A stretch of DNA of 64,000 nucleotides from Alkalicaulis satelles. GTDB lineage: Bacteria; Pseudomonadota; Alphaproteobacteria; Caulobacterales; Maricaulaceae. The position numbers and the translations under genes are program-made. The stretch spans positions 511,001 to 575,000 of the forward strand of contig NZ_VWOJ01000002.1 in assembly GCF_008630495.1 (NCBI RefSeq), read 5' to 3'. Position 1 is the first letter of the stretch. Each line of letters opens with the position of its first letter. The notes under the pieces are model-generated. The model did no database searches. It had not been told where the DNA came from and was given only the letters and a program-made list of their open reading frames with translations. Of the stretch, positions 47,278-64,000 are shown piece by piece.

Positions 47278-47311
47278 GAACATTAATGGAACAGAGCCGG
47301 GAGCCTGTCAA
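47278..47311 (-). promoter_or_regulatory. comM promoter with LexA (SOS) box
   Basis: Minus strand: TTGACA (47306-47311), 17-bp spacer, CATTAA (47283-47288). The alphaproteobacterial SOS motif GTTC-N7-GTTC lies at 47278-47292 (GAAC-ATTAATG-GAAC on the plus strand) and covers the -10, so LexA binding would block transcription. Leader to the start codon is about 90 nt. Confidence 0.7.
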
Positions 47312-60581: not shown

Positions 60582-63356
60582 TTAATGCGCCTGGCCCCAG
60601 GTGGCGGCCGCGCGCGCATCCACATCCAGCGGCACGGACAGGGATATGACCGGCAAGGGCGCCTGGCTCATGACCTCGCGGGCCAGCGCGATCAGGGCGT
60701 CGGCTTCGTTCTCGGGCGCTTCGAACACCAGCTCGTCATGGACCTGCAACAGCATGCGCGCGCTCAGGCCCGCCTTCGCCATCGCCGCATCCATGCGCGC
60801 CATGGCCCGGCGGATGATGTCGGCGGCGGCCCCCTGTATGGGCGCATTGATGGCCTGGCGCTCGGCGAACTGGCGCATGGACGGGTTCTTGTCGCGTATG
60901 GACGGCAGATGGATGCGCCGCCCGAACAGGGTCTGCACATAGCCGCGCTCGCGCGCCTCGGCTTTCATCGCCTCCATATAATCGGCGATCCCGGGGAACT
61001 TCTTGAAATAGTTGTCGATATAGGTTTTGGCCTCGTCGCGGGAGATGCCCAGATTATTGGCCAGCCCAAAGGCGGAAATGCCGTAGATAATGCCGAAATT
61101 GATGGCCTTGGCGTTGCGCCGCACCATCGGATCCATGCCCTCCAGCGGCACGCCGAACATTTCCGACGCGGTCATGGCGTGAATGTCCTGCCCGGCGCGG
61201 AAGGCGTCTTTGAGCGCCTCCACCCCGGCGATATGGGCCAGCAGGCGCAGCTCGATCTGGGAATAGTCCGCCGCCACGATCACATGGCCGGGCTCAGCCA
61301 CGAAAGCCTCGCGGATCTTGCGCCCCTCCTCGGTGCGGATGGGGATGTTCTGCAGATTGGGGTCGGAGCTCGACAGACGCCCGGTATTGGTGGCCGCCAG
61401 GGCAAAGCTGGTGTGCACCCGCCCCGTCTGGGGATTGATGGCGTCTTTCAAGGCGTCGGCATAGGTGGATTTGAGCTTGGCGAACTGACGCCAGGTCAGA
61501 AGCGCGCGCGGCAGATCATAGCCCTGGGCGGCCAGCTCCTCAAGCACGGCCGCATCGGTGGACCAGGCGCCCGACTTGGTTTTCTTGCCGCCGGGCAGGC
61601 CCATCTCGCCGAACAATATGTCGCCGATCTGCTTGGGGCTGCCCGGATTGAAGCGGGTTCCGGCAGCCTCGAAGGCGGCCTCCTCGGCCTCGGCCATTTT
61701 CTGGGCGAATTCCGACGACAGGCGCGAGAGCTGGGCCACGTCCACCTTGATTCCGCTCAGCTCCATGCGCGCCAGCACGGCCGGCAGGGGCCGCTCAAGC
61801 GTTTCGTAGACGGTGGAGAGCCCTGAGCGCGCCAGCGCCGGCTTGAGGATCTCCCACAGGCGCAAGGTCACGTCGGCGTCTTCGGCGGCGTACTGCGTGG
61901 CGGTCTTGAGATCGATCTCGTCGAACGATTTCTGCGCCTTGCCAGACCCGCACACCTCCTTGAAACTCATGGGCTTGTGGCCGAGATGGCGTTCGGATAG
62001 CGCGTCCATGCCATGCCCGCCGGAAGCGCCCTCCTGCACGTAGGAGAGCAGCATGGTGTCGTCATAGGGCGCGGGGTGGATGTCATGGCGGGCGAACACC
62101 GCCAGATCATATTTGAAATTCTGGCCCAGCTTCAGGATCGCCGGGTCTTCCAAGAGCGGCTTGAGACGGCCCAACGCACTGGCCATATCGATCTGCTCGG
62201 GCCGCCCGCCCCCGTCGGCCAGATCGCCGCCCGAATGGCCCAGCGGGATATAGCAGGCCTCGCCCGGGCGCACCGCCAGCGATACGCCCACCAGGCGCGC
62301 CGCACTCGCCGACAGGGCGTCCGTCTCCACGTCCACCGCCACGACGCGCGCTGCTCGGGCGCGCGCGATCCAGGCGTCCAGCGCCTCCAGGGTCTGAACG
62401 GTCTTGTAGGCGGAGCGATCGATGGGCGCGGTGGCGTCGCCGGTCTCGTCCGCAGGGCCGGCGCCCAGCGCCTCCTCGATCCGGCGCGTCAGGGTGCGAA
62501 ATTCCATGGCCCTGAGGAAGCCCACCAGCCGCTCGCCATCGGGATCGGCGGCGCCAAAACTCTCCAGCGGCGCAGGCGTGGGCGTATCGGCCTTCAAGGT
62601 CACCAGCTGGCGCGACAGCCGGGCGTTCTCAGCGTGTTCGATCAGACTTTCGCGGCGTTTGGGCTGTTTGATCTCTTCGGCGCGCGCCAACAGCGTATCG
62701 AGATCGCCATATTCGGTGATCAGCTGGGCGGCGGTCTTGATCCCGATGCCCGGCACGCCGGGCACATTGTCCACGCTGTCGCCGGCCAGGGCCTGCACAT
62801 CGATGACCTTTTCGGGCGGCACGCCGAATTTCTCGATCACCTCCTCGCGCCCGATGCGGCGTACTTTCATGGGATCGAGCAGGGTCACCTGGTCATTGAC
62901 CAGCTGCATGAGGTCCTTGTCGGAAGACGCAATGGAGACGCGCGCCCCGGCCTCGGCGGCCTGGCGCGCATAGGCGGCGATCAGATCATCGGCCTCATAG
63001 CCCTCCAGCTCGATGCAGGGCAGGTCAAAGGCCCCGGTGGCGTCCCGGATCAGCGCAAATTGCGGCACCAGGTCTTCGGGCGGCTCGGGCCTGTTGGCCT
63101 TGTAGCCGTCATAGAGCGCGTTGCGGAAGGTGACGCCGGAATGGTCGAAAATCACCGCCAGATGGGTCGGCGCATCCTCGCCCTTGAGGTCTTTCAACAG
63201 CTTCCAGACCATGGCGCAAAAGCCCTGCACCGCGCCCACCGGCGCGCCGTCGGAGCGGGTCAGGGCCGGCAGGGCGTGATAGGCGCGGAAGATGAAGCCC
63301 GACCCGTCCACCAGATAGACATGGGACTGGGCGTCAACGGGGCGGGTTACGGCCAT
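60582..63356 (-). CDS. polA: DNA polymerase I PolA
   Basis: A 924-aa polymerase. The 5'-3' nuclease domain (about 1-290) has VYLVDGSGFIFRAYHALP and SIASSDKDLMQLV. The 3'-5' exonuclease domain keeps its acidic residues (VVAVDVETDAL), so proofreading is probably active. Palm motifs are VVAADYSQIELRLLAH, the O-helix region RRNAKAINFGIIYG, and VHDELVFE. It is followed by the hrcA gene, 61 bp further, and preceded by the SOS-regulated small gene. Confidence 0.97.
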   Translation of the reverse strand: MAVTRPVDAQSHVYLVDGSGFIFRAYHALPALTRSDGAPVGAVQGFCAMVWKLLKDLKGEDAPTHLAVIFDHSGVTFRNALYDGYKANRPEPPEDLVPQFALIRDATGAFDLPCIELEGYEADDLIAAYARQAAEAGARVSIASSDKDLMQLVNDQVTLLDPMKVRRIGREEVIEKFGVPPEKVIDVQALAGDSVDNVPGVPGIGIKTAAQLITEYGDLDTLLARAEEIKQPKRRESLIEHAENARLSRQLVTLKADTPTPAPLESFGAADPDGERLVGFLRAMEFRTLTRRIEEALGAGPADETGDATAPIDRSAYKTVQTLEALDAWIARARAARVVAVDVETDALSASAARLVGVSLAVRPGEACYIPLGHSGGDLADGGGRPEQIDMASALGRLKPLLEDPAILKLGQNFKYDLAVFARHDIHPAPYDDTMLLSYVQEGASGGHGMDALSERHLGHKPMSFKEVCGSGKAQKSFDEIDLKTATQYAAEDADVTLRLWEILKPALARSGLSTVYETLERPLPAVLARMELSGIKVDVAQLSRLSSEFAQKMAEAEEAAFEAAGTRFNPGSPKQIGDILFGEMGLPGGKKTKSGAWSTDAAVLEELAAQGYDLPRALLTWRQFAKLKSTYADALKDAINPQTGRVHTSFALAATNTGRLSSSDPNLQNIPIRTEEGRKIREAFVAEPGHVIVAADYSQIELRLLAHIAGVEALKDAFRAGQDIHAMTASEMFGVPLEGMDPMVRRNAKAINFGIIYGISAFGLANNLGISRDEAKTYIDNYFKKFPGIADYMEAMKAEARERGYVQTLFGRRIHLPSIRDKNPSMRQFAERQAINAPIQGAAADIIRRAMARMDAAMAKAGLSARMLLQVHDELVFEAPENEADALIALAREVMSQAPLPVISLSVPLDVDARAAATWGQAH

Positions 63357-63440
63357 GGGAGGGCTCCGGCTGGCGAACAGGGCAGGGACGCCAAGCTAGG
63401 CCCGCCAGCCGGGAGGGGCAATCTGTGCGAGGCAGGCGCG

Positions 63441-63749
63441 TCAGGCGTGAGCGAACAGATCGCCCTGGGGGGCGCGCGCAGGCGCCATGGCCGGCGCAAT
63501 ATCCCGGCGCGGGGTGCGCGACAGGGTGCGCGACGGCGCAGGCGCGATCACCGGCTCGGCGTTCGACAGGGTCAGGCCCAGCTCGCCCGCCTTGGCGCGG
63601 ATGGCGCTGTCGGGCCGGCCCAGGCGCAGGCTGATCAGGCGCACCGGGGCGCCCTTGCGCGCCAGAGCCCGCAATTGCGCCAGATCCTCGCCACGCCAGC
63701 GCTTGCCGGCATTGCGCGCATATCCACCATTCGAAGCGCTGTAAGCCAT
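63441..63749 (-). CDS. SOS-controlled small basic protein
   Basis: 102 aa from ATG 63749, with GGAAGGAG 7 nt upstream. The N-terminal half is basic and helical (KRWRGEDLAQLRALARKGAPVRLIS, then LRLGRPDSAIRAKAGELGL) and resembles a small SANT/GcrA-like or helix-turn-helix DNA-binding module. The C-terminal half is Pro/Ala-rich and ends QGDLFAHA; QGDLF resembles a beta-clamp-binding motif. The promoter carries two LexA boxes (63771-63819). The gene is unnamed to me. A role in DNA-damage response is inferred. Confidence 0.75.
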   Translation of the reverse strand: MAYSASNGGYARNAGKRWRGEDLAQLRALARKGAPVRLISLRLGRPDSAIRAKAGELGLTLSNAEPVIAPAPSRTLSRTPRRDIAPAMAPARAPQGDLFAHA

Positions 63750-63770
63750 GAGTCTGCTCCTTCCAGAACA

Positions 63771-63819
63771 GAACATAGGCGGAACACGCGGCGCTGTCAA
63801 GGATGTTCGGTTAATGTTC
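63771..63819 (-). promoter_or_regulatory. Consensus promoter with two LexA (SOS) boxes
   Basis: Minus strand: TTGACA (63795-63800), 17-bp spacer, TATGTT (63772-63777). Box 1, GTTC-N7-GTTC, at 63771-63785 overlaps the -10 and spacer. Box 2, at 63805-63819, reads GTTC-GGTTAAT-GTTC on the plus strand and lies just upstream of the -35. GTTC-N7-GTTC is the alphaproteobacterial LexA motif. The tight promoter and double operator indicate strong, damage-inducible expression of the 102-aa protein. Confidence 0.82.
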
Positions 63820-63833
63820 CGTTTGCGCGGACT

Positions 63834-64000
63834 CTACCAGCTGCCGGTATTGTCCATGCTGGCCCAGGGCTCGGCGGGCGCCAGATGCTCGCCGCGCTGC
63901 AAAAGCTCGATGGAGATTCCATCCGGGCTGCGCACAAACGCCATATGCCCGTCGCGCGGCGGGCGGTGGATCACATAGCCCAGGGCCTGCAGCCGGGCGC
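63834..64000 (-). CDS. VOC family (glyoxalase-like) protein, partial
   Basis: The C-terminal 55 codons of a gene that continues past the right end of the window. The visible part reads [36 protein letters not shown] and a stop after NTGSW. A Glu in the SIELL strand is the metal ligand typical of VOC/glyoxalase I-like proteins. It may be a lactoylglutathione lyase-like enzyme, but most of the domain is outside the window. Confidence 0.75.

Follow-up and report, generated by a model that had tools for sequence, protein, structure and literature searches.

The small gene and its product

The 64,000-nucleotide stretch of Alkalicaulis satelles DNA analysed here (the window) carries, near its end and on the minus strand, a small open reading frame (ORF) whose promoter appears to assign it to the SOS response. 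The question raised by this locus is what so small a protein, devoid of any recognised enzymatic domain, would do after DNA damage. The positions of the ORF, of its promoter elements and of the regions of its product are listed in Table 1.

The ORF extends from an ATG at 63749-63747 to a stop codon at 63443-63441, is preceded by an AGGAG ribosome-binding site and encodes a product of 102 amino acids ending in QGDLFAHA. The gene, its promoter and the boxes around it were thus found at the positions given by an earlier sequence-only reading of the window. Whole-gene dN/dS values in the ORF family range from 0.06 to 0.23; therefore, purifying selection acts on the 102-aa protein, and the ORF is a real coding gene.

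Searches of Pfam and NCBIfam returned no matches for the window protein, and one of its orthologues matches GcrA (PF07750) at 16 bits, which is below the cut-off of 26.9. The protein is strongly basic, with a predicted pI of 11.6. By sequence it consists of a helix-turn-helix (HTH) domain, a linker and a short C-terminal motif only, and both sequence and structure model describe a soluble protein in which no membrane segment was found. These properties bear on the proposal, also made in the sequence-only reading, that the gene encodes a division inhibitor; SidA and SulA would be the proteins to compare. Small SOS-regulated proteins often inhibit division, but the high pI, the HTH fold, the lack of a membrane segment and the conserved clamp motif make such a function most improbable here, and the analysis gave the proposal no support.

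Table 1. Features of the small ORF and its surroundings (window coordinates)
Feature	Position	Strand	Remarks
Small ORF, 102 aa	63441..63749	-	ATG start; HTH, Pro/Ala linker and clamp motif
Sigma-70-type promoter TTGACA-17-TATGTT	63772..63800	-	Sole promoter-like match in 63300-63900
LexA-type box 1, GTTCCGCCTATGTTC	63771..63785	-	Covers the -10 hexamer; 23/23 orthologues; matrix (PWM) rank 4/40
LexA-type box 2, GTTCGGTTAATGTTC	63805..63819	+	34 bp upstream of box 1; PWM rank 6/40
polA	60582..63356	-	84 bp downstream of the small ORF; neighbour in the closest clade only
GcrA-type helix-turn-helix, residues about 12-60	63570..63716	-	AlphaFold, Foldseek, hhalign
Variable Pro/Ala/Arg-rich linker, residues about 61-94	63468..63569	-	Identity 0.38; low model confidence
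Putative beta-clamp-binding motif QGDLF, residues 95-99	63453..63467	-	Q, L and F invariant

Promoter and LexA-type boxes

The region upstream of the ORF contains a near-consensus promoter, as had been proposed, with box 1 containing its -10 element; shuffled sequences of the region gave a mean of 0.0 promoter-like matches. The boxes follow the pattern GTTC-N7-GTTC, which in its bare form occurs at 40 sites in the 2.89-Mb genome versus 42 for the reversed pattern used as a control. The bare pattern is not enriched genome-wide, and a single box alone means little; therefore, the case for regulation rests on conservation and on position relative to the promoter. Pairs of such boxes within 40 bp are expected about 0.02 times per genome.

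Boxes of the same type precede recA, lexA, ssb, uvrA, comM and the gene of a Y-family polymerase in this genome. A matrix trained on these six other SOS promoters, the genes having been recognised from their translations, placed box 1 fourth and box 2 sixth among the 40 genomic sites. All 23 orthologous loci possess a GTTC-N7-GTTC box that begins 35 to 41 bp upstream of the start codon, against a background of two boxes in the 52.7 kb making up the rest of these loci. The promoter pattern TTGAC-N-17/18-TA[TC]GTT fits 22 of the 23, and an alignment of 17 DNA sequences shows no variation in TTGAC or in either GTTC half of the core box. Box 2 is less constant: its exact form is found in 11 of 23 orthologues, at a spacing of 34-36 bp, and several of those without it have terminator-like or unrelated sequence instead. 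The "double" LexA control suggested earlier consequently fits this genome, where both boxes are present, but not the family as a whole, in which only the core box is kept throughout.

Judged from the promoter and the conserved boxes, membership of the gene in the LexA (SOS) regulon is near certain, and LexA very probably binds here as a repressor, in agreement with the sequence-only reading.

Other boxes in the genome

A further box inside polA (62625) received a low matrix score (13.8) and was treated as a chance occurrence. Elsewhere in the window, at 47278-47292 (L044), the box GTTCCATTAATGTTC precedes a ComM/YifB-like gene, which has a TTGACA promoter, by about 100 bp; its matrix score is high (20.6), but it belongs to the training set of six. 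The box of the Y-family polymerase gene, GTTCCGCATATGTTC (at 694 in L115, G000:C1:159000-163500), is nearly identical to that of the small ORF, and the polymerase has an internal QLDLF. Another box, GTTCTTTCTCTGTTC, is located about 160 bp upstream of mraZ (L037, G000:C1:981947), the first gene of the division/cell-wall cluster. A GTTC-N7-GTTC also stands at the start of a gene for a 124-aa protein consisting mostly of DnaA domain IV (PF08299, E 2.4e-14; L020/L167, G000:C1:94025-94421). SOS control of this protein was considered and rejected: among readable orthologues only that of genome G010 also has the box, which the closest relative lacks, and a chance match or a lineage-specific site is the probable explanation.

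A GcrA-type helix-turn-helix

The N-terminal part, previously described as basic and helical, is indeed so and can now be defined more precisely as a helix-turn-helix of the GcrA type. The AlphaFold model contains three helices (residues 20-32, 36-43 and 47-57), with pLDDT about 90 over residues 21-60. Among specific Foldseek matches the best is 5yiu, the DNA-binding domain of GcrA (probability 0.99, rmsd 0.9 A over 44 columns); E 0.001 was not reached by any match, which is to be expected of a domain this short. An hhalign comparison with an alignment of GcrA covered 48 columns, with 94% probability and E 1.4e-7. Nucleic-acid binding is further supported by a hit from a sequence search of the PDB, 2lvs, whose description is that of a CRISPR-repeat-binding protein. 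Pairwise identity among orthologues is 0.76 in this domain, and it probably binds DNA.

The protein shares with GcrA (PF07750) the HTH pattern W-x2-E/D-x3-L-x2-L ... LG ... A-[IV]-x2-K-x3-LGL. GcrA has its own C-terminal CxWP...FC...YC..H region, whereas in all orthologues of the small protein this region is absent and is replaced by the linker and the clamp motif. Therefore, the small protein is not GcrA.

Outside the clade, relatives share the HTH only. They comprise GcrA and a set of proteins from phages and proteobacteria, about 67 aa long, that end in PTNQSPYNR, such as ALP47880.1 of Pseudomonas phage YMC11/02/R656 and others resembling the phage family phrog_323. The HTH of these short proteins is 40-48% identical, but they have neither the linker nor the clamp motif, and no clamp motif was found in any of the HTH-only relatives read outside the clade. 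A LexA-type box is absent from all but one of those examined. The exception, in another family of the order (L095, G671), has an upstream GTTC-N7-GTTC at a non-comparable position, which may be due to chance. In Pseudomonas phages (L101:2986-3189, L100:2980-3180, L102:2986-3189) the gene for the 67-aa relative stands by itself within a group of tail genes, on the strand opposite to them, as in a moron-like cassette. The idea that the entire gene came from a phage or plasmid was rejected, since only the HTH part is found in such elements; a scan of viral contigs gave no relative.

Linker and putative C-terminal clamp motif

Downstream of the HTH the model loses confidence, mean pLDDT dropping from 70 to 49 across residues 61-90. 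The protein then ends in a motif of the Q-x-x-[LM]-F type, which is placed in a flexible, accessible segment after this low-confidence linker. The sequence-only reading had noted that QGDLF resembles a clamp-binding motif, and comparison with relatives bears this out: all 23 orthologues carry Q-x-[DE]-L-F, in the variants QGDLF, QPDLF, QMDLF or QLELF, with 0-3 residues between it and the C-terminus. Pairwise identity within the five residues is 0.76 versus 0.38 in the linker, making the motif the most constrained part of the protein outside the HTH.

Other proteins of the same genome carry comparable motifs, namely QVSLF at position 910 of DnaE1 and QLDLF at position 399 of the LexA-boxed Y-family polymerase. 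The bacterial clamp consensus is QL(S/D)LF and has been described as C-terminal (PMC9690074). Based on the invariant residues, the protein is likely to bind the beta-clamp. In QGDLF, the form present in this strain, Gly replaces the consensus Leu, so the affinity for the clamp may be weak.

In some members of the genus the motif is followed directly by a terminal -AA or -A (LFAAA, LFVAA, LFGAA). Such an end, which may represent a ClpXP-type degron that overlaps the motif, is absent in Glycocaulis and Marinicauda.

The presence of both domains allows the protein to be considered as a clamp-guided transcription factor, in which the HTH would regulate, in a sequence-specific manner, second-tier genes of the SOS response or the cell cycle, and the motif would merely concentrate the protein near forks or couple it to fork passage. 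The HTH is most similar to that of GcrA, a transcriptional regulator, and matches phrog_323, a phage family annotated as "D5-like transcriptional regulator". Such a function nevertheless appears rather unlikely, given that the GcrA C-terminal domain with its conserved Cys/Trp/His motif is missing and that the strongest constraint outside the HTH falls on the clamp motif.

Distribution and genomic neighbourhood

Of the 15 genomes searched from the genus of the window, its own included, 14 yielded a full-length orthologue; with nine more from three other genera of the family, the total is 23. Oceanicaulis, Marinicauda (Marinicauda salina), Glycocaulis and one further genus are represented, and the protein family is restricted to a small number of genera within a single family. 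Absence from genome G004 was not taken as gene loss and is uninformative, as the contig breaks off within the upstream gene. Sampled sister genera have no small ORF at the site that follows the upstream gene, except in genome G034, where a 60-aa HTH-only relative with neither motif nor box occupies this place. In the clade carrying the full-length gene, the clamp tail and the LexA promoter occur together.

Nearly all loci retain the same upstream neighbour, which codes for a protein judged by its sequence to be of the glyoxalase fold (VOC-like); the downstream gene varies. It is polA in 6 of 23 genomes, all belonging to the closest clade. No terminator was detected in a scan of the interval between the small ORF and polA, and a 13-bp hairpin region there folds no better than shuffled sequences. 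The adjacency to polA, from which co-induction had been proposed, is thus not a conserved property; co-regulation as a general feature was rejected, and any co-induction of polA is at most local. Comparison of neighbours across loci revealed no antitoxin-like, adaptor or conserved operon partner gene beside the ORF.

The latter result is relevant to the possibility of a growth-arrest toxin that would stop replication outright under LexA control. SocB of Caulobacter crescentus, the toxin of the SocAB system, blocks replication elongation by docking a clamp motif in the same beta-clamp cleft (PMC9690074), and SocB and pneumococcal RipA are both small proteins that hit this cleft (PMC9690074, PMC12795458). 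The small protein resembles SocB in being small and in its predicted mode of action, and a protein of this kind can evidently act on elongation, since SocB does so in a related bacterium (PMC9690074, PMC12795458). However, SocB is degraded by ClpXP and has an antitoxin partner, whereas the small ORF is LexA-controlled, encodes an HTH and lacks an evident partner gene. With no antitoxin or adaptor gene adjacent, the upstream VOC-like gene conserved and the downstream gene variable, a toxin of the SocB kind is quite improbable.

Distribution also bears on a role as a repair adaptor, recruiting a partner, for instance a Y-family polymerase or a factor of mismatch or excision repair, to clamps situated on damaged DNA, with no inhibition of DnaE1. 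LexA control is common to the small ORF and the Y-family polymerase, which has its own QLDLF, and in Caulobacter MutS and MutL are recruited by clamp motifs (PMC8034640). Against this, the protein has no conserved protein-interaction surface besides the HTH and the motif, and its presence does not track DnaE2. Overall, this role is not very probable. Dependence on an ImuB-DnaE2 mutasome was rejected, the gene being found in genomes with one or with two DnaE; this genome itself has a single DnaE and lacks DnaE2, in contrast to several others of its genus.

Proposed role

Most SOS genes known to act via the sliding clamp encode polymerases or polymerase accessory proteins. The clamp-binding polymerases induced in the SOS response (DinB/Pol IV, ImuB, Y-family) are, like the small ORF, LexA-controlled and carry a Q-x-x-L-F type motif, and the Y-family polymerase of this genome shares with it both such a motif and a near-identical box. 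They differ in having a polymerase domain, whereas the small protein, about 100 aa long, has a DNA-binding domain only.

The best reading of these data, tentative and with somewhat less than an even chance, is that the gene encodes an SOS-induced DNA-binding ligand of the beta-clamp that competes with DnaE1 at damaged forks. LexA would occupy the -10 element, and in this clade also the site 34 bp upstream, keeping the gene silent until DNA damage. The protein would then most likely gather on clamps at forks or gaps, where its DNA-binding domain would anchor it, and compete for the clamp with the QVSLF of DnaE1. Replication may be slowed or remodelled as a result, and the competition would give repair or Y-family polymerases access. 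The predicted effect on replication may be that of a brake, a recruiter or a regulator.

Regarding its origin, it is possible, at a lower level of confidence, that the protein is a non-enzymatic bridge between DNA and clamp, composed of an HTH and a clamp peptide and serving as a damage-induced fork brake or polymerase-exchange factor, which arose in one clade by combination of a widespread, partly phage-borne HTH with a clamp tail under LexA control. SOS-controlled clamp ligands are known, but this architecture of HTH plus clamp peptide is not known to us. In a literature search whose coverage excluded most subscription papers, no LexA-controlled protein with an HTH and a clamp motif was found, nor any paper specific to the genus Oceanicaulis on SOS or LexA.

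The gene is small and conserved in the cultured genera Oceanicaulis, Glycocaulis and Marinicauda, and three key residues have been identified. If the proposed role is correct, a LexA-controlled DNA-binding domain joined to a clamp peptide would constitute a minimal and easily tested modulator of the replication fork induced by damage, and the family would show how an HTH of the GcrA/phage type can be rewired into the DNA damage response.
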